Of a DNA stretch of 64,000 bases, positions 23,550 through 34,303 are shown piece after piece; the stretch's first letter is position 1; each line of letters opens with the position of its first letter. The stretch comes from Sinomicrobium oceani (lineage in GTDB: Bacteria > Bacteroidota > Bacteroidia > Flavobacteriales > Flavobacteriaceae). The notes under the pieces were generated by a model, which worked only from the letters and a program-made list of their open reading frames with translations, was not told the origin of the DNA and made no database searches. Both the position numbers and the translations under genes were made by a program. The stretch covers positions 62,001 through 126,000 of the forward strand of contig NZ_FPJE01000015.1 in NCBI RefSeq assembly GCF_900119185.1, in the 5' to 3' direction.

Positions 23550-23978
23550 ATGCTCCTCTGCGCCTCCCGTAACGAGATCGGGAACAAGAAAAAAATTGAA
23601 AAGATCGTAGGAAAGCCCTGCACCATTGCGGACAGGGTAAAAATCGGAGGTGTGCATTCCCCTGAGATGGATATCATATCGTCTTCCGTCAAACTTCACA
23701 ATCTCATTATTCTCAACAAATCGCACAGTACGTCGTGTACCCTGGAACTGAGGCCCGGCGGAATCATTTTACGTTTCTTTGCCGCGATGAACAAGTATAT
23801 GTTTCTTATTCCCTATTACAAACTTTCGATACACAAGATAAACACAAGTATATACGCTATTCACAAAGATGACTACCATGTGAATATCGATGTGAGAAAT
23901 GAAGCGGGCAGAGATTTTATAAAGAAAATACTCAAATCCAAATCGGACAGTTACCCTACTTTTATCGACGATCTCTGA
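23550..23978 (+). CDS. Conserved-looking small hypothetical protein
   Basis: This encodes up to 142 residues from the ATG at 23550; an internal ATG at 23667 would give 103 residues and may be the true start. The C-terminal 90 residues look like real protein: VKLHNLIILNKSHSTSCTLE, LRPGGIILRFFAAMNKYMFL, IPYYKLSIHK, then YHVNIDVRNEAGRDFIKKIL. This resembles small uncharacterised flavobacterial proteins with a beta-rich, pleckstrin-like pattern. There is no signal peptide or membrane helix. Its 3' end overlaps the convergent glycosidase gene by 17 bases. A TATCTTTA near 23530 could be a weak -7 element for the longer start. Confidence 0.55.
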   Translation: MLLCASRNEIGNKKKIEKIVGKPCTIADRVKIGGVHSPEMDIISSSVKLHNLIILNKSHSTSCTLELRPGGIILRFFAAMNKYMFLIPYYKLSIHKINTSIYAIHKDDYHVNIDVRNEAGRDFIKKILKSKSDSYPTFIDDL

Positions 23979-25095
23979 TGCGTTTGGTTCCGGTTTCTTC
24001 ACCCCGAACTCTCCGTATAGCTCCGAACAATGTCTTAAAACAGGTTACCTGGTCGTCCGGCTTATCCTCATTCTCTTTTTCGCTATAATACGCATCCAGG
24101 AAGTTTTCTGTCCCTGTCCATACGGTATGGACCAAACCGCGAAAACGATCCCGCATCTCCGGGGTTGCATTTTTTCTGTTTGTCAGCAACTGGTCCAATT
24201 GTGCTACCGCTACATCCTCTTTACGCCACGGGCAGGTGACCACATTAAACCCTTTTACGGCAAAGTACACTGCGGTAGGGTCTGCTCTTTCATAGTGCCA
24301 GTCACAGATCATCACATCTTTGGGGATCATATCTATGGCCCGGTGTGTGTTGTTCATGCTCGCTTCCCACATCCCTATACCCGTTGTTTTTCCATCGATG
24401 AGCCGGTCTCCCCATATCCAGAGTTCCTTGGCGCTCAAGGAAAGATGATCTCTTATCCGTGCTACTTCTTCTGCATAGAGCACAGCTTTGTCACGTCCGC
24501 CACATCTCGGGCATTTCTCATCGCCGATATAAAACACTTCATCCATTCCGGCATGGAATGCATCCGCTTCGAAAACACCGGTGATTTCATCGATCAGTGC
24601 AAATACGATATCATGAACTTCCGGGTGTAGCGGACAATAACTCTTACAATACAAACCATCGGGATTTGGCCATTCATAGTTTTCCGGTAAGTTGACATGC
24701 GGAGTTTCGTCAAATTCAGGGTATACTTCCAGCAATTTTCCTACGGTACCGGCCCAGGACTGATGTCCGAGAAGGTTGATTTGCGGAATAATGCGTATGC
24801 CGTGTTCCCGACAGGCTTTCACAATCTGCTCTACATCTGTCGCGGATAACGCACTTTCACCGACAAGCTCCGGATGTGAGGTATACCGGTAATTATAATC
24901 GACCCTCAGGATTAAAGTATTTATCCGGTAAAAGGCCAGTTCTTCATTTATAAAATTCACAAAACGACCTACTCCGTCACGTGCAGGAGCTGCTATGGCA
25001 AAGCCCCGCACAGCGACTTCATCGACCGCAGGACTCTGACAAAACACCAGAAAACACACGAAAAACGAACAAGCCAATAAGATTATTTTTTTCAT
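23962..25095 (-). CDS. GH20-like beta-N-acetylhexosaminidase, secreted
   Basis: The 377-residue protein has a signal peptide (MKKIILLACSFFVCFLVFCQ) and a TIM-barrel pattern of glycoside hydrolase family 20. Supporting features are YRINTLILRVDYNYRY, GIRIIPQINLLGHQSW, and HAGMDEVFYIG with the catalytic Asp185-Glu186 pair in the H-x-G-x-D-E context. A CPRCGG Cys pair (195, 198) follows, perhaps a metal or disulfide site. It lacks the extra N-terminal domain of many chitobiases, so it is a minimal catalytic form. GH20 enzymes release N-acetylglucosamine or N-acetylgalactosamine. It is divergent from the ECF/FecR/SusCD locus at 25232 and probably belongs to it; substrate is inferred. Confidence 0.8.
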   Translation of the reverse strand: MKKIILLACSFFVCFLVFCQSPAVDEVAVRGFAIAAPARDGVGRFVNFINEELAFYRINTLILRVDYNYRYTSHPELVGESALSATDVEQIVKACREHGIRIIPQINLLGHQSWAGTVGKLLEVYPEFDETPHVNLPENYEWPNPDGLYCKSYCPLHPEVHDIVFALIDEITGVFEADAFHAGMDEVFYIGDEKCPRCGGRDKAVLYAEEVARIRDHLSLSAKELWIWGDRLIDGKTTGIGMWEASMNNTHRAIDMIPKDVMICDWHYERADPTAVYFAVKGFNVVTCPWRKEDVAVAQLDQLLTNRKNATPEMRDRFRGLVHTVWTGTENFLDAYYSEKENEDKPDDQVTCFKTLFGAIRRVRGEETGTKRIRDRR

Positions 25096-25180
25096 AACGA
25101 TGAGATTTATGTGTTAATTTTCCGGGAATTAATCCCTGAAAATGTATTTCTTCTGACGATATGCAAAACAGCACCACCTG

Positions 25181-25210
25181 TTTGCTACGTAACTAAAATA
25201 ACTATATTTG
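25181..25210 (+). promoter_or_regulatory. Promoter of the ECF gene, close to consensus
   Basis: TTTG at 25181-25184 and TATATTTG at 25203-25210 are separated by 18 bases, fitting the Bacteroidota TTTG-N18-21-TAnnTTTG promoter. The ATG at 25232 is 21 bases downstream, so the leader is short. This suggests basal sigma-70 expression of the ECF gene. Confidence 0.7.
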
Positions 25211-25231
25211 TCATCATGCCAACTTTAAACG

Positions 25232-25801
25232 ATGAAAAAGTCGCCGAAAGATATCTTACACGATTTGCAGCGTGAGAGGAGTGAAGCATCTTTTGATATC
25301 TTTTTTTCTTGCTACCATAATCACGTTTTGCTATGGGCAAACAGCATTGTTAAAGATCCTGATCTGGCCAAAGATATCGTGCAGGATTTTTTTCTGGATT
25401 TCTGGCAGCACAAACGCTATCTCTCCATCACCACAGATCTTTCTGCTTATGTGTATCGCGCTATAAGAAACGCTGCATTGAAGCATCTCGACCGGGCAAA
25501 AAAAATGGTCTCGGACGAATCGCTGAAAGACAATTTCCAGGAGTTCCCTCTGTACAGAGAACTCGACCGAAAGGAAATTATTTATACAGCCATCAACAAC
25601 CTCCCGGAGAAGTGCAGGGAGGTTTTCACCCATTGCTGCATATACGGAAAAACCTACGGAGAGACCGCAGAAGACCTCGGTGTATCGATCAATACGGTGC
25701 GTACACACATGACGCGAGCTTTCCGGTTACTTCGGGAACAACTGCACCCTTCTCTCTTTCTCCTGCTGCTCACCAGGGATATCTGCCTCGAAACCAACTG
25801 A
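25232..25801 (+). CDS. ECF sigma factor of the SusCD/peptidase locus
   Basis: The 189-residue protein has region 2 (FDIFFSCYHNHVLLWANSIV, LAKDIVQDFFLDFWQHK, AYVYRAIRNAALKHLDR) and region 4 (LPEKCREVFTHCCIYGKTY, GETAEDLGVSINTVRTHMTR). It belongs to the Bacteroidota ECF group that pairs with FecR. The FecR gene follows by 130 bases, then SusC with an STN domain, the usual signalling layout. It likely activates susC, susD and the peptidase genes after ligand binding. Confidence 0.9.
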   Translation: MKKSPKDILHDLQRERSEASFDIFFSCYHNHVLLWANSIVKDPDLAKDIVQDFFLDFWQHKRYLSITTDLSAYVYRAIRNAALKHLDRAKKMVSDESLKDNFQEFPLYRELDRKEIIYTAINNLPEKCREVFTHCCIYGKTYGETAEDLGVSINTVRTHMTRAFRLLREQLHPSLFLLLLTRDICLETN

Positions 25802-25931
25802 TTTTTCAGGCAGGGATACGATAAATAACCGGTCTCACTTCGATTCCCGGAGCCTGCTTTTAAAAAAAATTAACGACGATTTCACATCATTCTCTTTTTT
25901 TTGACTCTCTTAGTAAAGAACCAACTGAAAA

Positions 25932-27116
25932 ATGCATACGGATATCGAAAAAATATACCTCAAAGTGATCCAGAACCATCCGCTGACCTTCGAAGAACGA
26001 CGGTTACTGGTGAAAAAACTCCGTGACGATCCGGGATTAAAACCTTTCTTACTGCACCTGAAAGACATCCACCATGAGGCCACCGCCCTGAAAACAAGTG
26101 ACCTGGACGAAAAAAAGGCACTTCTGGCGCTAAAACAACGCATGAAACCCGAACCGAAAAAAGCACTCCGGATCCGGCCATGGATGCGCTATGCGGCCAT
26201 ACTTACCGGGATATTGATCACCGGGTACAGCTGGTATCTCTTTCACCATACCACCGAAAGCAACACCCCTAAAATAACGTTACAACTCGAGGATGGCTCC
26301 GTAAGGGAACTGGACGAGAGTACAGTGAATATCATCACCGGCAATAACGGCAGGGCCATTGTATCTCAGAAAAAAAACACCCTTCACTACGACCATGTAT
26401 CACAGCCGGGGGAAACCTCCGTACTTCACAACGTATTAAATGTACCTAAAGCTAAAACGTTTCAGCTTATCTTATCCGACGGTACTCGTATTCTGCTCAA
26501 TTCCGGAAGCAGGATCAGGTATCCGGAAGCCTTTCACCCCGGTGAAAAAAGAATCGTACAACTTCTGGACGGCGAGGCTTATTTTACTGTCCGGCACGAT
26601 TCCCTAAGTCCATTCATCGTTCGCACAGGAAAAATCGATGTGAAAGTCCTGGGAACAGAATTTAATATTTCGGCCTATACCGAAGACTCCCTCTTACATA
26701 CCGTATTGGTCAGCGGAGGGGTAAAAGTACGTTCGGAGGGAGGAACCGTACGTGAACTCGTACCGAACCAGATAGCCACGTATAACAGGGCGTCGGAACA
26801 GCTCTCGGTGCAACAGGTGACCGTCACAGATCATATCGCCTGGGTAGACGGTAAGATGCGTTTTGTGGACAAACCGTTCGGGGATATCCTGAAAACCATT
26901 GAAAGAAGTTATGATGTGAAGATCATTAACCGGAATAAAAAACTACAGCACGCCCGCTTTTACGGTGATTTCGACATCCACAAGGAAAGTGTAAATGACG
27001 TGCTGAAAGTATTTGCTACCGGCAGGCCTTTTTCGTACGAAAGAAATGGCAATGTTATTACCATTCTGCCCGATGCCGACAAAAAAGAACATGAAACCCT
27101 ATTGCCTATGCCATAA
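25932..27116 (+). CDS. FecR-family anti-sigma factor of the SusCD locus
   Basis: The 394-residue protein has a cytoplasmic sigma-binding part (1-80), one membrane helix (about 87-104; YAAILTGILITGYSWYLF), a periplasmic FecR domain (FQLILSDGTRILLNSGSRIR, GEAYFTVRHDS, VKVLGTEFNIS) and a C-terminal DUF4974 domain (KPFGDILKTIERSYDVKI, RFYGDFDI). It should transmit the signal from the SusC STN domain to the upstream ECF factor. Length and order are normal. Confidence 0.92.
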   Translation: MHTDIEKIYLKVIQNHPLTFEERRLLVKKLRDDPGLKPFLLHLKDIHHEATALKTSDLDEKKALLALKQRMKPEPKKALRIRPWMRYAAILTGILITGYSWYLFHHTTESNTPKITLQLEDGSVRELDESTVNIITGNNGRAIVSQKKNTLHYDHVSQPGETSVLHNVLNVPKAKTFQLILSDGTRILLNSGSRIRYPEAFHPGEKRIVQLLDGEAYFTVRHDSLSPFIVRTGKIDVKVLGTEFNISAYTEDSLLHTVLVSGGVKVRSEGGTVRELVPNQIATYNRASEQLSVQQVTVTDHIAWVDGKMRFVDKPFGDILKTIERSYDVKIINRNKKLQHARFYGDFDIHKESVNDVLKVFATGRPFSYERNGNVITILPDADKKEHETLLPMP

Positions 27117-27168
27117 CCTGTTTACAAACACTTTTTTCGGATAATACGGGAGGTATTACCTGAAAAAA

Positions 27169-27190
27169 GGGAAATGCGCCAACATTTCCC
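27169..27190 (+). other. Hairpin between fecR and susC
   Basis: GGGAAATG (27169-27176) pairs with CATTTCCC (27183-27190) around a 6-base loop, 53 bases after the fecR stop and 57 before the susC start. No T-run follows, so it may be a weak terminator, a processing site or part of the susC leader. The ECF-dependent promoter of susC should lie in this gap, but I cannot identify it. Confidence 0.4.
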
Positions 27191-27246
27191 TCAGCTACTT
27201 ATTAATAATTAAAGTGACTAACCATTGAATAAGTTCTATCAAAATT

Positions 27247-30200
27247 ATGAAAATTAATTACCTGAGAATGAAAATATCATTGCTTTTGCTATTTTTCGTG
27301 GTGCTCCAGATTACGGCTTCCTCCGCCCCTGCACAGAAAAAGCTGGTATTTGACCTGCAGAACGTAACACTAAATGAGGTTTTGGAGGAAATAAAAAAAC
27401 AAACCGACTACAAATTCTTTTTTGAACGGGAAGTTATAGATCTCTCCGAGAGGATCTCCTTAAAAGCCGAAAGGGAGACTGTAGAAATTATACTCGAACG
27501 GTTATTCCGGGGAAGTCCGGTGACTTTTACAATTATCGACAGGCAAATTGTACTGACCAAAAAAATCGCGTTTGCCCCGCAACCTGTTTACCATGCGGAA
27601 ATGCCCGTACAGCGGGTTATTACGGGAACTATCACAGACAGCAGCGGAATTCCCCTGATGGGAGTTACCATTCTGGTAGAAGGTACCCGTACAGGCACTA
27701 CTACCGATGAAAATGGTAAATATGCCATCGCAGCAGCCGGGGGAGACACCTTACTGTTTTCCTACATCGGGTTTGCCTCTCAATCCGTAAAGATAACGGC
27801 TGTAGATACTACGGTAAATATCGCTCTTACGGAAGAGGTGAACTCACTCGAAGAAGTGGAAGTCTCCGTAGCCTTCGGCAAACAAAAGCGAATCAGTGTC
27901 GTTGGGGCGCAGACCTCTGTAAATGTCGAGGAGCTCCAACAACCGGTATCCAACATCAGTACCGTACTGGCAGGTCGTGTTGCCGGATTAACTGGAGTAC
28001 AACGCTCGGGATTACCCGGATATGACGGTGCGGATATCTGGATCCGGGGGATATCTACCTTTACCTCGGCCGGGAACGGCCCTCTCATCCTGGTAGATGG
28101 CGTGGAACGGTCCATGAACAATATAGACCCCAGGGACATCGCTTCCTTTACCATCCTCAAAGATGCCTCTGCAACAGCGGTATACGGGGTTCGCGGAGCA
28201 AACGGTGTAGTACTCATCGAAACCAAACGCGGGAAAATAGGAAAACCTTCTATTCAGGCCGATTATAACGAAGGCATATCTTTCTTCACCAAAGTACCCG
28301 AACTGGCCGACGGCATTACCTATATGAAACTGGCCAATGAGGCCAATACGACCCGTGGGCTCGCTCCCAGGTATTCCCAGGAAACCATAGACCGCACTGC
28401 CTCGGGTGAAGATCCGTTATTATACCCGAATGTCGACTGGATGGACCAGGTGTTTAAAGATTTCGGAAGAAACAGGCAGGTTAACGTCAATGTCAACGGA
28501 GGTGCCGAGAACGCCCAGTACTACGTATCGCTAAGTTATTACGACGAATCCGGATTATTTACTACCGATGGCATGGAAAACGACGATGCCCGAACACGAT
28601 TTAAGCGGTATAATGTGACTTCAAACCTCACGGTAGATATCACCCCGACAACCAAAGTAAACCTCGGGGTCCAGGGATACATCTCGGAAGGCGGATACCC
28701 CGGAATTCTCGGAGGTGAAGATGATTCCGCAAGAGATGTCGTCAACGAGATATTCAATGCCGCAATGCAGGTACCTCCCGTAGAGTACCCCGTCATGTAT
28801 CCCGGAGATTTTGTTCCGGGGATCAGTCCCAACGGAGATCTCAAAAACCCATATGCCCTGGTTACCAGAAGCGGCTACCGTACAGACACGCGAAACCAGA
28901 TCTATTCTAACCTCAACATTACACAGGAACTGGATTTCTTTACAGAAGGCTTATCCTTTAACGGTATGTTCGCCTTTGATGCCTATAATGCTCACAACAT
29001 TTTGCGCTCCAAGCGGGAAAGTACGTATTACGTGGATATTGCCAACCCCTATAACGATGACGGCAGCCCGAACCTCCAGGAAACTTATCCGGGACAGAAC
29101 CACCTCGGATATCGCAGACAAAATGGTGGTAACCGGAGGTTCTATATTCAGGCTTCCTTAGATTATAACCGGACATTCGGAGCCCATACCCTCGGAGGCC
29201 TGCTGCTGTTTAACCGTACGGACTATGTCAATGCCTTTGCCGGCGACCTCACCGAATCTATCCCTTTCCGTAACCAGGGATTTGCCGCCAGGGTAACTTA
29301 TGCTTATGAAAGTAAATATTTTCTGGAACTGAACGGAGGATACAACGGTTCCGAAAATTTTGCCCCGGACCGGCGTTACGGCTTCTTTCCTTCCGTAGCC
29401 GTGGGTTGGGTCGTTTCTAATGAGAAATTCTTCGAACCGATAAGCGAAACGATCAACTTCCTAAAGATCCGGTATTCCGATGGTAAAGTGGGAGGTGCCT
29501 CAGGAGCCGGACGCTTTGCGTACCTCAGTAAGGTAGAAGAAGACAATGACTACGGTTTTGATTTCGGTGAAAATGTAAATTTCCGTAACGGGATCAGGGA
29601 AACCTACCAGGGAGTAGATGTTACCTGGGCAGAGTCCAGAAAGCAGGACCTGGGACTGGAGCTCAATGCGTTTAACAGCAAATTTAAAATGACCGTAGAC
29701 TTTTTTAAGGAACACACCACAGGCGCATTCCTGCAAAGGCAGGACATTCCCAACTATATCGGGCTGGTCTCCGATCCGTTCGGTAACATCGGGGAAACCG
29801 AAAATAAAGGAGTCGATGGTACGGTCGAATACTATACCGCGATCCGGGACTTCAACCTTTCATTCCGGGGAACATTTTCATACAACGAAAACAAGATCAT
29901 ACAAAACGGTCAGCCGGAACAGCCTCATACATGGCTCAACAGGCAAGGCAATCCTATCCTCGGCATTTACGGCCTGGTCGCCGAACGGTTATTCACTCTC
30001 GAAGATGATAAAGACGGGGACGGTTATATTACTACCGAAGATGGTTTTCCTTCTCAATACGGGCAGATACAGCCCGGCGATGTCAAATACAAAGATCTGA
30101 ACGGTGACGGACAGATCGACGCCTACGACAGGCAGCTTATCGGTGACGGGGATGTACCCAGGCTCACCATAGGGTTCGGGCTTGGCGGAGACTACAAAGG

Positions 30201-30654
30201 TTTTGACGCCAGCGTATTTTTCCAGGGTCAGTTCCATGCTTCACGCGTCATCTCGGGGAACAGCATCATACCTTTTAACGGCGATGGTGGAAGAGGTAAC
30301 CTGTACGATATCGCTGTCAACCGCTGGACGCCCGACAACGATGATCCGTATGCCATGTATCCGAGGTTGTCTTTCGGAGCCTCTGGTATAGGACAAAACA
30401 ACAATACCCAGGAGAGTACCTGGTGGCTTCGCAAAATAGATTTTCTCCGTTTAAAATCTGCCGAGATAGGCTATACGCTCCCCAAAACCCTGACCAACAA
30501 ATGGCATATCGGAACCACCCGGTTCTACCTCAGGGGTACCAACCTGCTGACTTTTACCAAGTTTAAACTCTGGGACCCGGAATTAAATACCTCCAACGGG
30601 GGTGCATACCCCAACATTTCCGTATGCTCTCTGGGTGTTAACCTTCAATTTTAA
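27247..30654 (+). CDS. SusC/RagA-family TonB-linked outer membrane receptor with STN domain
   Basis: The 1135-residue receptor starts with a signal peptide (ISLLLLFFVVLQITASSAPAQ), then an STN domain (about 33-110; LVFDLQNVTLNEVLEEIKKQ), a carboxypeptidase-D-like domain (about 125-205; ITGTITDSSGIPLMGVTILV) and a TonB box (SLEEVEVSV). A plug follows with IDPRDIASFTILKDASATAV and YGVRGANGVVLIETKRG, then a long barrel. SusC proteins import oligosaccharides or peptides with a SusD lid. The STN domain links it to the upstream FecR/ECF pair. It is followed by susD after 6 bases. Its cargo may be a glycopeptide, given the two peptidases and a GH20 enzyme nearby. Confidence 0.93.
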   Translation: MKINYLRMKISLLLLFFVVLQITASSAPAQKKLVFDLQNVTLNEVLEEIKKQTDYKFFFEREVIDLSERISLKAERETVEIILERLFRGSPVTFTIIDRQIVLTKKIAFAPQPVYHAEMPVQRVITGTITDSSGIPLMGVTILVEGTRTGTTTDENGKYAIAAAGGDTLLFSYIGFASQSVKITAVDTTVNIALTEEVNSLEEVEVSVAFGKQKRISVVGAQTSVNVEELQQPVSNISTVLAGRVAGLTGVQRSGLPGYDGADIWIRGISTFTSAGNGPLILVDGVERSMNNIDPRDIASFTILKDASATAVYGVRGANGVVLIETKRGKIGKPSIQADYNEGISFFTKVPELADGITYMKLANEANTTRGLAPRYSQETIDRTASGEDPLLYPNVDWMDQVFKDFGRNRQVNVNVNGGAENAQYYVSLSYYDESGLFTTDGMENDDARTRFKRYNVTSNLTVDITPTTKVNLGVQGYISEGGYPGILGGEDDSARDVVNEIFNAAMQVPPVEYPVMYPGDFVPGISPNGDLKNPYALVTRSGYRTDTRNQIYSNLNITQELDFFTEGLSFNGMFAFDAYNAHNILRSKRESTYYVDIANPYNDDGSPNLQETYPGQNHLGYRRQNGGNRRFYIQASLDYNRTFGAHTLGGLLLFNRTDYVNAFAGDLTESIPFRNQGFAARVTYAYESKYFLELNGGYNGSENFAPDRRYGFFPSVAVGWVVSNEKFFEPISETINFLKIRYSDGKVGGASGAGRFAYLSKVEEDNDYGFDFGENVNFRNGIRETYQGVDVTWAESRKQDLGLELNAFNSKFKMTVDFFKEHTTGAFLQRQDIPNYIGLVSDPFGNIGETENKGVDGTVEYYTAIRDFNLSFRGTFSYNENKIIQNGQPEQPHTWLNRQGNPILGIYGLVAERLFTLEDDKDGDGYITTEDGFPSQYGQIQPGDVKYKDLNGDGQIDAYDRQLIGDGDVPRLTIGFGLGGDYKGFDASVFFQGQFHASRVISGNSIIPFNGDGGRGNLYDIAVNRWTPDNDDPYAMYPRLSFGASGIGQNNNTQESTWWLRKIDFLRLKSAEIGYTLPKTLTNKWHIGTTRFYLRGTNLLTFTKFKLWDPELNTSNGGAYPNISVCSLGVNLQF

Positions 30655-30660
30655 CCGATT

Positions 30661-32484
30661 ATGAAAACAATGTATTTCACATATAACAAGATGAAAAAAC
30701 TGATCGTTTCCATAGCGATCGGAGGCGCGGTGCTTTCATGCAATGACGACTTTCTGGATCAGGTCCCCGATGACCGACTGACTTTCGAAGAGACCTTTTC
30801 CAGCAGGAATACGACAGAAGAATACCTCGCTGCAATATACAGAAGACTTCCCAATGAGTACGCACAACGTTATACCACAACCCAGAACTCAGGTCCGTGG
30901 ACCGGGGCTTCGGACGAAGGAGAATACGTATGGTCATTCCCCCTGTCCAATTATATGAATATAGGTGACTGGAATCCGACAACCGGGAATATCAGCACCT
31001 TGTGGAGCAATTTTTATCGCGGCATACGGGAATGTTCTACCTTTATAGAGAATATAGAAAACTGCAGGGATTGTACGGAGGCAAATATCAAACAATATAC
31101 CGGGGAAGTCCATGTGCTCCGGGGTTTTTTCTACTACGCCCTATTACGCTCCTGGGGTCCCGTAATTTTGCTCGGTGATGCCTCGACCAATGCAGACTCC
31201 GATGTTTCGATGTTCAAACGAAATACCATAGATGAAGTGGTAAACTATATAGTCAGCGAGCTGGATACCGGCGCAGAGGCATTGGAAGGGATCAACTTCA
31301 AAGGCGGAAATGCAGGAAGGATGAGCCGGCCTTTTGCAATGGCTATTAAGGAAAAAGCCTTGTTGTTTGCGGCCAGCCCTATTTTTAACGGCAATACCGA
31401 TTATGCGGAATTAACGGATGAAGAAGGTAATTTCCTGATCCCACAGTCTCCGGACATCAACAAATGGAAAACAGCAGCAGATGCCGCCAAAGCTTTTATC
31501 GACGAATTTGTGCCCGGCACCTTTTCGCTATACAAGGAATATAACGACGATGGTTCTGTCAATGGCTATCTCTCCTGCAGAAATGTGATGTTACGGGACT
31601 GGAATCCGGAAATGATCTACGAACGGCCGCGGGGAACTTTTTACCTCAATTACGATTGTACCCCGTACCATGCCGGGGCAGACAGCAGGGTTAAAGGGGC
31701 TGGCGGATTAGGGCTAACCCAGGAGTTTGTCGATGCCTTCTTCACGGAAAACGGACGACCTATCGATGATCCCGAATCCGGGTACCAGGCTTCGGGGTTT
31801 ACCGATTTTCAAACTCCTTACGACGATCAGAGCCGGACGATCTTCGCGGCCTGGGCAAACAGAGAACCCCGGTTCTATGTCAATGTTACCTTCAATAATT
31901 CGCTCTGGCTGAACAGGGACCATGGTGATGTCATCACCACAACCTGGTATTCCGGGAATTCCGGGAAGGGCTCGGGCGGAGGTAACGATTATACACCGAC
32001 GGGATATATTGCAAGGAAAAATATTGCTCCCGACGGATCGACCAGCAGGGCCATTCCTATGATACGGCTTGCGGAGATCTACCTCGATTATGCAGAAGCC
32101 CTGAACGAATACGAGCCCGGAAACCCGGATATCCTGAAATATGTCAATCTGATCAGAGAACGTGCCGGTATTCCCCTCTACGGTTCTTCCGGACTACCAC
32201 AGCCCGCAGGGCAGGATGCCATGCGAGAGGCCATACACCGGGAACGCCGGGTGGAACTCGCCCTGGAGAGCGTAAGATACTTTGACCTTATCCGTTGGAA
32301 ACAGGCAGAAAATGCCCTGCATGGCCCTGTACACAGTATGGATATCAACGCTACTGACGAAGCGGATTTTTATCGTGTCATTACTTTCGAAACACGAGTA
32401 TTCACAAAAAAACATTATCTCTTTCCTGTTCCGCAGGGAGAAATTGACGCTAATCCGGCTCTTCAGCAAAACACAGGATGGTAA
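30661..32484 (+). CDS. SusD/RagB-family substrate-binding lipoprotein
   Basis: The 607-residue protein has a lipoprotein signal (KKLIVSIAIGGAVLSC, Cys27 from the first ATG; an ATG 10 codons later is an alternative start). A SusD fold follows, shown by FLDQVPDDRLTFEETFSS, EYLAAIYRRLPN, the helical region with EVHVLRGFFYYALLRSWGPV, and the C-terminal IRLAEIYLDYAEALNEY and RRVELALESVRYFDLIRWKQ. SusD proteins form the surface lid on SusC and bind the nutrient. Length is within the large range for the family. The binding residues are too variable to read the ligand. Confidence 0.93.
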   Translation: MKTMYFTYNKMKKLIVSIAIGGAVLSCNDDFLDQVPDDRLTFEETFSSRNTTEEYLAAIYRRLPNEYAQRYTTTQNSGPWTGASDEGEYVWSFPLSNYMNIGDWNPTTGNISTLWSNFYRGIRECSTFIENIENCRDCTEANIKQYTGEVHVLRGFFYYALLRSWGPVILLGDASTNADSDVSMFKRNTIDEVVNYIVSELDTGAEALEGINFKGGNAGRMSRPFAMAIKEKALLFAASPIFNGNTDYAELTDEEGNFLIPQSPDINKWKTAADAAKAFIDEFVPGTFSLYKEYNDDGSVNGYLSCRNVMLRDWNPEMIYERPRGTFYLNYDCTPYHAGADSRVKGAGGLGLTQEFVDAFFTENGRPIDDPESGYQASGFTDFQTPYDDQSRTIFAAWANREPRFYVNVTFNNSLWLNRDHGDVITTTWYSGNSGKGSGGGNDYTPTGYIARKNIAPDGSTSRAIPMIRLAEIYLDYAEALNEYEPGNPDILKYVNLIRERAGIPLYGSSGLPQPAGQDAMREAIHRERRVELALESVRYFDLIRWKQAENALHGPVHSMDINATDEADFYRVITFETRVFTKKHYLFPVPQGEIDANPALQQNTGW

Positions 32485-32518
32485 CATTGTATTGAACCCG
32501 ATTCTTTTCTATATAGCG

Positions 32519-32550
32519 AACCCGGCAGGGCATCTTTTGCACTCCGGGTT
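32519..32550 (+). other. Hairpin between susD and the first peptidase gene
   Basis: AACCCGG (32519-32525) pairs with CCGGGTT (32544-32550); the 18-base loop can form a small nested stem. No T-run follows. It may lower expression of the downstream peptidase genes relative to susCD. Confidence 0.4.
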
Positions 32551-32570
32551 CCATTTTAAACCCTTGACAA

Positions 32571-33245
32571 ATGATAATGAAAAAAATTCTTGCTTATAGC
32601 CTGCTATCTTTACTGGCCCTACAACTGGGCGCTCAGCAATCCGAAACTTTTAAAAAGAAGGGGAAGACCCTGGTATTCATCAATGAGGACCCTGAACTGA
32701 ATCCGAAGGTCCAGGCCGGACTGGTCCGTACTTTTTTTAAAGTTTATCCCAAACTGGTTAAAACCTTCAACCGAAACGCTGTAAAAGACGTGGAAGTCCG
32801 GATCGATACGGCATATACCGGGGTGGCATATGCCCACAACGGAAAAATAACGATCAGTTCGGAATGGCTCCGGAAAAAACCCGGAGATCTCGATGTAATC
32901 ACTCACGAAACAATGCACCTCGTACAGGCCTATCCTTCCGGAAGCGGTCCCGGCTGGATTACCGAGGGCATTGCAGATTATGTCCGTTATATATACGGCG
33001 TCGATAACAAGGGTGCCGGCTGGTCTCTACCGGAGTATAAAGAAGGGCAGCATTATACGGACAGTTACCGGATAACGGCCCGCTTTTTCTTTTGGCTTTC
33101 CCTGAATTACAAAAAAGGAATGCTATCAAAACTCGATAAAAACATGCGTAATGCTACATATAACGATGCTTTCTGGCAGAAGGAGACCGGGTACGACCTC
33201 GAGACTTTATGGCAACAGTACACGGAAAATCCGGATATCAGTTAA
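32571..33245 (+). CDS. Basic secretory protein family zinc metallopeptidase
   Basis: The 224-residue protein has a signal peptide (MKKILAYSLLSLLALQLGAQ, from the third residue; ATG codons at 32571 and 32577 both possible). The domain resembles the basic secretory protein family (PF04450): DLDVITHETMHLVQAYP with zinc ligands His112 and His116 and Glu113, followed by GPGWITEGIADYVRYIYG, a conserved downstream signature. The family includes plant defence-related and bacterial secreted proteins; peptidase activity is inferred from the HExxH motif. It lies 86 bases after susD in the same direction, so it is likely a locus member. Confidence 0.82.
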   Translation: MIMKKILAYSLLSLLALQLGAQQSETFKKKGKTLVFINEDPELNPKVQAGLVRTFFKVYPKLVKTFNRNAVKDVEVRIDTAYTGVAYAHNGKITISSEWLRKKPGDLDVITHETMHLVQAYPSGSGPGWITEGIADYVRYIYGVDNKGAGWSLPEYKEGQHYTDSYRITARFFFWLSLNYKKGMLSKLDKNMRNATYNDAFWQKETGYDLETLWQQYTENPDIS

Positions 33246-33290
33246 CCCCAACAACCTAACCTATTTATTAATCTTTAAATATTCCAAATC

Positions 33291-34241
33291 ATGAAAACTA
33301 TGAATTTTTCCAAACTCGCACTTGCAGCGGGCCTGGTCGGGCTCTGTCTGTTTCAGACCTCTTGTTCTTCAGAGGTCAAAGAAGACATTGCCCTGAACAG
33401 TGAGACACTTACTGCAGCAGTCAACTATCCCGATCCTCCGTTAACCTGGCAGGAACATTGGTTTGAGCACAATCAGCTCGTTCAAAGAGTATTTTTTGAC
33501 GACCACCTGGCCTTGTATTTCGACGACGATGTAGACACTGCTGTCACCTGGCCGAACACTTTTCTTTCGGACGTGTGGGAATACGTAAAAAGCAATTACG
33601 GCAGCTTCGGGGACGACCCGAGATTGTTTACCATACTGCACACCGGAAAATATTCGGGAGGCCATCCTTCTACCTACTTCGATTCGAGTCACGATTACAG
33701 AAATGTCATCGACTGCGGGCCTTACACCTGGACCGATGAGACACCTACCGGGGGCATCAATATGCTGGTTCATGAAGTGGGCCATATCGTGGAGATCGCA
33801 TCAAAAGGTGTAAAAAGTTCTCCGGCCTGGGACATCTGGAAAGACAGCAAATGGGCAGAGATATTTATCTATGACGTTTATAAAAATCTCGGCAAAGACG
33901 ATTTTGCACAGGAAGTCTATGATGACCTGATGAATAAATATGATAATTTCCCCAGGCAAAACACCCAATGGTTCAAGGACTGGTTCTATCCTATATATTC
34001 TCAATACGGTGAAGGTGCTGTTCTGAACAATTTCTTCGAACTCCTTGCGGCGCACTTTCCTAAAAATGCTTCGGGGACGGAATATTCCCGTAGAATGAAC
34101 TGGGGAGAATTTGTTCATTTCTGGAGCGGTGCCGCAGGAACAGACCTGAAGCCTCTTGCTCAGAACGCATTCGGGTGGTCTACAGAATGGGAAAATCAAT
34201 GGGTACAGGCCAAGAGCACATTTAACCAGATTACATATTAA
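33291..34241 (+). CDS. Putative zinc metallopeptidase lipoprotein
   Basis: The 316-residue protein has a lipoprotein signal (LAAGLVGLCLFQTSC, Cys25), so it is likely anchored at the cell surface. NMLVHEVGHIVEIAS holds His161, Glu162 and His165 of an HExxH zinc site. Other features are Trp- and Asp-rich: LTWQEHWFEHNQLVQRVFFD, an acidic FDDDVD segment and MNWGEFVHFWSGAAG. I cannot place it in a named peptidase family with confidence. It follows the basic-secretory-type peptidase by 45 bases and ends at a strong terminator, making it the last gene of the locus. The third zinc ligand is not clear. Confidence 0.7.
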   Translation: MKTMNFSKLALAAGLVGLCLFQTSCSSEVKEDIALNSETLTAAVNYPDPPLTWQEHWFEHNQLVQRVFFDDHLALYFDDDVDTAVTWPNTFLSDVWEYVKSNYGSFGDDPRLFTILHTGKYSGGHPSTYFDSSHDYRNVIDCGPYTWTDETPTGGINMLVHEVGHIVEIASKGVKSSPAWDIWKDSKWAEIFIYDVYKNLGKDDFAQEVYDDLMNKYDNFPRQNTQWFKDWFYPIYSQYGEGAVLNNFFELLAAHFPKNASGTEYSRRMNWGEFVHFWSGAAGTDLKPLAQNAFGWSTEWENQWVQAKSTFNQITY

Positions 34242-34268: not shown

Positions 34269-34303
34269 AAAGCCCGGAAATGCAATTTACATTTCCGGGC
34301 TTT
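34269..34303. terminator. Strong bidirectional terminator
   Basis: A 14-bp perfect stem (34269-34282 with 34290-34303) with a 7-base loop begins with AAA and ends with TTT. It sits between the convergent peptidase gene (plus) and cysH (minus). Confidence 0.8.

Follow-up and report, generated by a model that had tools for sequence, protein, structure and literature searches.

Positions 23962 to 34241 of a 64,000-nucleotide stretch of the Sinomicrobium oceani genome (assembly GCF_900119185.1, contig NZ_FPJE01000015.1, positions 62,001 to 126,000 of the forward strand; hereafter the window) hold an operon in which a SusC/SusD pair is followed by a basic secretory protein (BSP) type peptidase and a putative metallopeptidase lipoprotein, here called PEP2, together with a divergently transcribed GH20 gene. 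The explanation that we tentatively prefer is that the operon encodes a SusCD uptake system, regulated by an extracytoplasmic function (ECF) sigma factor and a FecR-type anti-sigma factor, for fragments of mannosylated glycoproteins, either high-mannose N-glycoproteins or the mannoproteins of fungal or algal walls. It is based on the gene content, on zinc residues that are conserved or lost together, on the repeated association of PEP2 with both BSP and alpha-mannosidases and on the presence of a GH92-containing SusCD locus in the same genome. The locus would be of a SusCD type with the proteolytic half on its own and, probably, a mannosylated or wall glycoprotein as its substrate.

A preliminary description of the window had placed a GH20 gene divergent from a series of ECF, FecR, SusC, SusD and two peptidase genes, and these genes and their order were borne out: all seven open reading frames were found at the coordinates below and six of the seven were matched by family models well above chance.

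23962..25095, minus strand: GH20 beta-N-acetylhexosaminidase-like enzyme (PF00728, 8.7e-13; PDB relative 8bal, 1.7e-102)
25096..25231: divergent intergenic region of 136 bp between the GH20 and ECF genes (open reading frame coordinates)
25232..25801, plus strand: ECF sigma factor, Bacteroidetes type (TIGR02985, 131 bits, cut-off 126)
25932..27116, plus strand: FecR-type anti-sigma factor (PF04773, PF16344)
27247..30654, plus strand: SusC TonB-dependent importer (TIGR04056, 993.5 bits; TIGR04057)
30661..32484, plus strand: SusD surface lipoprotein (PF07980, 4.3e-61; PF14322)
32571..33245, plus strand: BSP-type HExxH peptidase (PF04450, 80 bits, cut-off 23.8)
33291..34241, plus strand: PEP2, an unclassified HEVGH lipoprotein of predicted gluzincin fold
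34269..34303: hairpin with 17-nt arms and a 1-nt loop between PEP2 and cysH (repeat search), a possible terminator

A SusC/RagA receptor adjoining a SusD/RagB lipoprotein defines a SusC/SusD uptake system, and the ECF and FecR genes together with an N-terminal STN signalling domain in SusC (PF07660, residues 55-106), as expected for ECF/FecR control, place it among the ECF/anti-sigma-controlled SusCD loci. The only candidate for the carbohydrate-active enzymes that characterize a polysaccharide utilization locus (PUL) is GH20, which is divergent and separable. BSP has the motif HETMH at residues 112-116 and a signal peptide without a lipobox, as read from its sequence, and is therefore probably periplasmic or secreted; PEP2 has HEVGH at residues 161-165 and what appears to be a lipoprotein signal at its N-terminus (QTSC followed by acidic residues). 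We infer catalysis, locations, order of steps, induction and substrate as follows. Substrate on SusC/D would be signalled to the ECF factor, first by the STN domain of SusC and then by FecR. PEP2, as a surface lipoprotein, would cleave the protein part, SusD and SusC would take in the glycopeptides, and BSP would trim the peptide, probably in the periplasm. Removal of mannose would be left to GH92 enzymes from other loci, such as the one on contig C30 described below.

A scan of named genomes with PEP2 gave 44 loci, in which the co-occurrence of other genes was scored by BLASTP at 1e-10; 10 of the 44 are under 20.7 kb and further genes may lie beyond their edges. BSP was present in 12 loci and a SusC relative in 14; 12 had a SusD of 45% identity or more, and the order SusC-SusD-BSP-PEP2 recurs. 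Eight of the 12 loci with such a SusD also had BSP, the other four being L031, L059, L060 and L062, of which L060 ends just after PEP2. GH92 was found in six loci (in L030 as an 84-aa edge fragment) and GH20 in none.

Alpha-mannosidases (GH92, GH125, GH38 and GH47, the last three identified in scans of chosen neighbours in L029, L061 and L068, respectively) adjoin PEP2 in Bacteroidota, Ignavibacteriota and Kryptoniota. Two GH92 genes together with GH31, GH3 and GH127 lie beside PEP2 in L018 (genome G143), a locus additional to the 44, and in the Salegentibacter locus L029 BSP and PEP2 are accompanied by three GH92 genes (one truncated at the edge of the locus) and by GH125, GH43, ROK and GMC; GH92 is also present in L031 and L071. 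The gene run in L061 (Ignavibacteriota) is BSP-GH38-GH92-GH92-PEP2, and L068 (Kryptoniota) contains GH47, a BSP relative, GH92, PEP2, GH47, GH92 and a kumamolisin/subtilase-type peptidase, its divergent BSP (26% identity) being below the BLASTP threshold and outside the 12 counted above. BSP, PEP2 and alpha-mannosidases are thus found together in L029, L061 and L068, representing three phyla. The idea in the preliminary description of a glycoprotein substrate is strengthened in so far as the recurring gene order and the glycan enzymes nearby tie a SusCD importer to proteolysis, probably of a glycoprotein. Its emphasis on mucin and N-acetylglucosamine (GlcNAc) is weakened by the companions in the SusCD loci and in the two other phyla, which are mainly alpha-mannosidases, though the GH18 chitinase-like genes that directly precede PEP2 in 11 of the 24 loci from Chitinophagaceae (see below) leave it some room.

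The genome of Sinomicrobium oceani itself contains 7 GH92 genes, and the C30 locus reads LacI-GMC-SusC-SusD-GH92-GH92. Compared with the L029 run, identity is 77% and 76% (the latter over 513 aa) for its GH92 enzymes and 79% for its GMC, which indicates that genes forming a single run in Salegentibacter are divided between two loci in Sinomicrobium oceani. In Salegentibacter salinarum, SusC and SusD of the L029 type (89% and 88%) have GH76 matches and a GH92 relative as neighbours. An alpha-mannan-inducible PUL with GH92, GH43, GH125, GH2 and GH76 is described for Salegentibacter sp. Hel_I_6 in passages of PMC9213526, and L029 has GH92, GH125 and GH43 in common with the PUL as given there. The mannose PULs of marine Flavobacteriia (passages of PMC9213526 and, for the North Sea, of PMC6298971) resemble the window in having SusCD, and in L029 relatives of BSP and PEP2 run with GH92, GH125 and GH43; however, the window operon is without a mannosidase, the SusCD of L029 is distant from that of the window (SusC 31%, SusD 22%) and GH76 was not found in the L029 genome. 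In passages of PMC6298971, mannose-rich N-glycoprotein targets are proposed for GH92-rich PULs, and for a sulfatase-rich PUL type a glycoprotein target is suggested, with peptidases co-located; a passage of PMC9723552 favours diatom glucuronomannan for the sulfatase-rich type. Literature searches combining mannoprotein, metallopeptidase, SusD and alpha-mannosidase found no description of the BSP/PEP2 gene pair among the papers listed, and none of those listed linked PF04450 or basic secretory protein to SusD, GH92 or PULs, in a search that most subscription journals lay outside.

The zinc sites of both proteins were examined in alignments. In BSP, H112, E113, H116 and E132 are invariant in 14 of 14 rows. 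In a 33-row alignment of PEP2, H161, E162, H165 and E190 are all conserved in each of the 24 rows with HExxH, and E190 is gone in six of the nine rows without it. That E190 is kept with HExxH and often lost with it fits E190 as the third zinc ligand, which is presumed here from the alignment.

The AlphaFold2 model of PEP2, built from 33 aligned sequences, has a mean predicted local distance difference test score (pLDDT) of 88; from residue 51 onwards the values are about 90 or higher. Lugdulysin (7bb8, family M30) was the top Foldseek match at E 1.7e-4, closely followed by M1 chains and by 4fca, which sequence comparison shows to be an M60 relative (6e-60 to the M60 of a related genome). With VIA-align 2 the best M1 chains reached Z 13.6 (root mean square deviation, rmsd, 3.1-3.8, 212-221 residues) and 4fca 12.9 (rmsd 4.0, 238 residues). 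Lugdulysin scored 12.7-12.8 and AM0627, an M60 O-glycopeptidase (7yx8), 12.4 (rmsd 4.7, 245 residues), and the M60 structures 7yx8, 5ev7 and 4fca (12.4-12.9) are tied with M1 and M30. Given these nearly tied scores the safe statement for PEP2 is a gluzincin fold (M1/M30/M60-like), which is predicted with confidence; PEP2 is called a putative metallopeptidase on the strength of its motif and this predicted fold. By sequence, PEP2 matched none of the NCBIfam models at E values up to 10, that for the substrate import-associated zinc metallohydrolase lipoproteins included. Its sole Pfam match was the sub-cut-off DUF3567 (E 0.05), one match was obtained among PDB sequences (E 1.1) and the 33-row profile matched nothing there up to E 1. 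The family is thus without a model in the Pfam and NCBIfam copies searched.

PEP2 shares with the M60 O-glycopeptidases (AM0627, 7yx8; 4fca) the predicted gluzincin fold and HExxH with a downstream glutamate, and the M60 chains gave the longest PEP2 alignments among the best 50 rows (238-245 residues); it differs in lacking a PF13402 match, and M1 and M30 structures score equal within error. An assignment of PEP2 to M60 was considered and not adopted: the fold is compatible, but neither PEP2 nor the 33 PEP2 members matched PF13402 up to E 10 and a profile comparison with three M60s from the same genome and a relative was not significant. A divergent BSP was likewise not adopted, as the hhalign probability of 40% over 82 columns around the motif was insufficient.

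The predicted structure of BSP (pLDDT 90) is also a gluzincin fold with the same class of structural matches as PEP2; M60 chains, listed for PEP2, were not among the best 50 rows for BSP, which excludes nothing, and the BSP profile matched no PDB sequences up to E 1. Lugdulysin (M30) and M1 aminopeptidases are the top Foldseek matches for both proteins, but identity is 8-17% in the rows listed and size and domain make-up differ. Like other members of the PF04450 family of plants and bacteria, BSP scores over the cut-off and conserves HExxH and the following glutamate, and it differs in sitting within a SusCD operon. The genome has only two BSP genes; the second is on contig C54 (L025:10080-11306, 408 aa), and relatives of the window SusC and SusD were not found on this 19.7-kb contig.

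The resemblance of both predicted folds to M1 aminopeptidases (best Z 13.6 for PEP2 and 14.4 for BSP) and an operon without a glycosidase apart from the separable GH20 could also be read as signs of a peptide or protein importer like RagAB, with no glycan requirement and with peptidases that cut any protein. RagAB of Porphyromonas gingivalis is a peptide importer and resembles the window locus in the SusCD-type import of protein-derived material; it differs in that the window locus has two linked metallopeptidase-fold proteins whose relatives adjoin glycan enzymes. We regard such an importer as quite unlikely, since recurrence beside glycan enzymes in several phyla would not be predicted by a general peptide system.

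The PEP2 family was found to include members without a zinc site. A 3-row PEP2 profile was positive in 3 of 395 genomes in a phylum sampling, and a family search was positive in 5 of 199 (in two cases through weak matches covering only some 45 residues), Sinomicrobium oceani being included both times. From the 44 loci and from L027 and L028 of the phylum search, 52 PEP2 domains of at least 200 residues were extracted (shorter ones, such as L072, were dropped), of which 42 have HExxH and 10 do not. These domains, the window PEP2 and three sequences added by hand made up a tree of 56 rows, 55 of them different. Twelve of the 13 rows without HExxH form one clade (support 100/100), the thirteenth being L064, and the window PEP2 falls in a six-row catalytic clade (support 100/97) with two Salegentibacter sequences, Arenibacter, Zunongwangia and a Planctomycetota-labelled contig, with a tool warning of long branches near the catalytic/sister split. 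F5/8C domains were found in all four scanned rows of the sister clade (L018, L030, L032 and L092, of which L030 is below the curated cut-off), in L019, which is another copy of the L070 gene, and in two members of the catalytic clade (L033 above the cut-off and L032 below); Pfam found none in the window PEP2. Judged by these features the zinc-site-less clade resembles surface glycan-binding proteins, and in L030, L032 and L033 catalytic-type and zinc-less PEP2 genes stand side by side. All four Chitinophagaceae PEP2 proteins scanned (L034, L036, L038 and L041) carry type IX secretion tails, which supports extracellular action.

The sister clade and its F5/8C domains would also suit a plain-glycan locus, in which PEP2-fold proteins serve mainly in surface glycan binding and the peptidases are accessory. 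PEP2 immediately follows SusD or BSP, a position in which surface glycan-binding proteins are usually encoded, and in G143 it belongs to a glycosidase-rich PUL without BSP. This explanation appears unlikely for the window, where PEP2 lies in the catalytic clade, keeps HExxH and E190, is without F5/8C and is adjoined by a BSP with an intact motif.

The PEP2 family with its pseudoenzyme sister clade is the most interesting part of the locus. A further proposal, of which we are doubtful, is that PEP2 is the founder of an unrecognised family of secreted gluzincin glycopeptidases that act with BSP on mannosylated (wall) proteins, and that a zinc-less sister clade gained F5/8C domains and became a SusD-associated surface glycan-binding protein. 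If true, the enzyme and the binding protein of one uptake system would share a fold.

The Chitinophagaceae account for 24 of the 44 PEP2 loci, and in 11 of the 24 a homologue of a GH18-bearing protein is encoded directly upstream of PEP2:

L038, L040-L044, L046, L049, L051, L054, L057: GH18 gene upstream, on the same strand as PEP2

GH18 was confirmed by Pfam in six of six scanned among the 11, with GH5 also present in L038 and L041, CBM6 in three of the six and type IX tails in all. The best PDB matches of the catalytic domain were chitinases in the two proteins searched, and a barrel model of the endo-beta-N-acetylglucosaminidase EndoS matched weakly. In some Chitinophagaceae loci, such as L034, only unrelated-looking genes were seen by eye. 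Fungal walls, which combine chitin, glucan and mannoprotein, would join the mannosidase and chitinase settings.

Several observations weigh against the uptake of mannosylated glycoprotein fragments. Pfam and NCBIfam identified no alpha-mannosidase or mannanase in the seven-gene window locus, GH92 was not seen in 38 of the 44 PEP2 loci within the fetched flanks (10 of the 44 being under 20.7 kb), and GH76 was found in one of the six genomes with mannosidase-PEP2 loci, that of L029 not being the one. The presence of GH31, GH3 and GH127 in L018 and of an alpha-fucosidase in L059 suggests that substrates may vary, and PEP2 in Chitinophagaceae is often beside chitinase-like and not mannose enzymes, which fits fungal walls but also chitin. 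The words 'peptidase' and 'protease' are both absent from the main text of PMC9213526. The activity of the window PEP2 is a prediction, a 12-row sister clade has no zinc site, and in the family sample the closest relatives by SusCD carry PEP2 without HExxH. Among 397 family genomes, five including Sinomicrobium oceani have an orthologous SusD (E up to 1e-120). In three of the other four (G143, G144 and G786) the PEP2 homologue lacks HExxH, BSP is present in G144 and G786, and G094, with the most divergent SusD (40-45%), has neither PEP2 nor BSP. The preliminary description had held that orthologous loci lacking the peptidases would speak against its proposal, and this was found in part: PEP2 without HExxH in three of four, BSP in two of four and neither in one.

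Mannose-rich fungal and algal glycoproteins are a source of both organic carbon and nitrogen. GH92-rich loci are suspected of glycoprotein targets without a defined proteolytic partner in passages of PMC6298971, and a peptidase pair beside alpha-mannosidases in three phyla, one member of which is also found beside chitinase-like enzymes, provides concrete candidates. With BSP and PEP2 as candidates, uptake of glycopeptides versus glycans becomes directly testable.

The GH20 enzyme has both the PF00728 domain and the catalytic D-E pair, within a catalytic-type G-M-D-E at residues 183-186, and reads as having a signal peptide without a clear lipobox. The preliminary description had included it in the locus; a role as a required part fails on genus distribution, synteny and the 44 PEP2 loci, in none of which a GH20 relative was found even at E 0.05. 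Synteny at the GH20 site was examined in two congeners (G199 and G202), where the order is cysH-GH20-ORF141-argS with GH20 71-72% identical and the susCD block absent at the site. Among six genomes of the genus, PEP2 homologues occur in Sinomicrobium oceani, G199 and G200 and GH20 in Sinomicrobium oceani, G199 and G202; in G199 the two are about 2 Mb apart, and the PEP2 homologues of G199 and G200, both without HExxH, belong to a FecR-SusC-SusD-PEP2-ORF736 locus. Three other family genomes have GH20 relatives (L022-L024) with different neighbours. A literature search by the PDB codes 8BAL and 9FYM found no paper.

Part of the GH20/ECF intergenic region is conserved in G202 along with an ECF remnant between cysH and GH20 (L021:9590-9802), which matches window positions 25195-25405 with 73% DNA identity and retains 62 ECF codons at 63% (E 6e-25; the best of 100 shuffles gave 20 bits). 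This indicates that the ECF gene was present at this position in a common ancestor and that G202 has since lost it but kept GH20, and the whole susCD block was likely once at the G202 site; no ECF remnant was found at the G199 site. The alternative that the window genome gained the block by insertion was dropped, given that the G202 remnant shows loss of at least the ECF gene there. GH20 is thus a long-standing neighbour, kept where the operon is absent, and is not required, though it may help with GlcNAc. A joint system, in which GH20 and the peptidases act on a GlcNAc- or GalNAc-bearing glycoprotein, mucin or chitin-protein followed by glycopeptide import, would draw on the divergent adjacency over 136 bp, on the G202 remnant, which makes the GH20-ECF adjacency older than the window genome, and on the GH18 chitinase-like genes of the Chitinophagaceae loci. 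We consider it improbable, because both GH20-holding congeners lack the block at the site and GH20 is missing from the PEP2 loci and distant from PEP2 in G199. A mucin-type role would also be better suited by two M60 genes that the genome carries elsewhere, close to paralogues of SusD. These true M60 genes are located at C22:70328-71113 and C22:86458-87243 (L106 and L104) and possibly mark O-glycoprotein loci.

The block at 25232-34241 has a G+C content of 47% compared to 44% and 42% in its flanks, which by itself proves nothing, and the listed repeats, which cover 20 of 28 direct families, include no long pair that bounds it. In the Planctomycetota metagenome-assembled contig L032 the SusC-SusD-BSP-PEP2 set is close to that of the Flavobacteriaceae genome of L033, and the PEP2 gene of a Desmonostoc contig (L058) is placed among Bacteroidota ones; these odd placements may reflect misbinning, contamination or transfer. 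A conserved protein of 735-741 aa adjoins PEP2 homologues in four loci (L018:2459-4669, L031:4453-6678, L092:12522-14732 and L093:12449-14656). Two of these proteins were scanned and had no Pfam match and no useful PDB match, an ORF736 profile gave one partial PDB match (E 0.0023), and the protein is possibly an undescribed enzyme. Finally, a protein of 833-834 aa is encoded near the sister-clade PEP2 gene in L066, L067, L069 and L071, and the copy scanned, that of L066, matches DUF4964, DUF5127 and the GtaA hairpin and is 'glutaminase A'-like.

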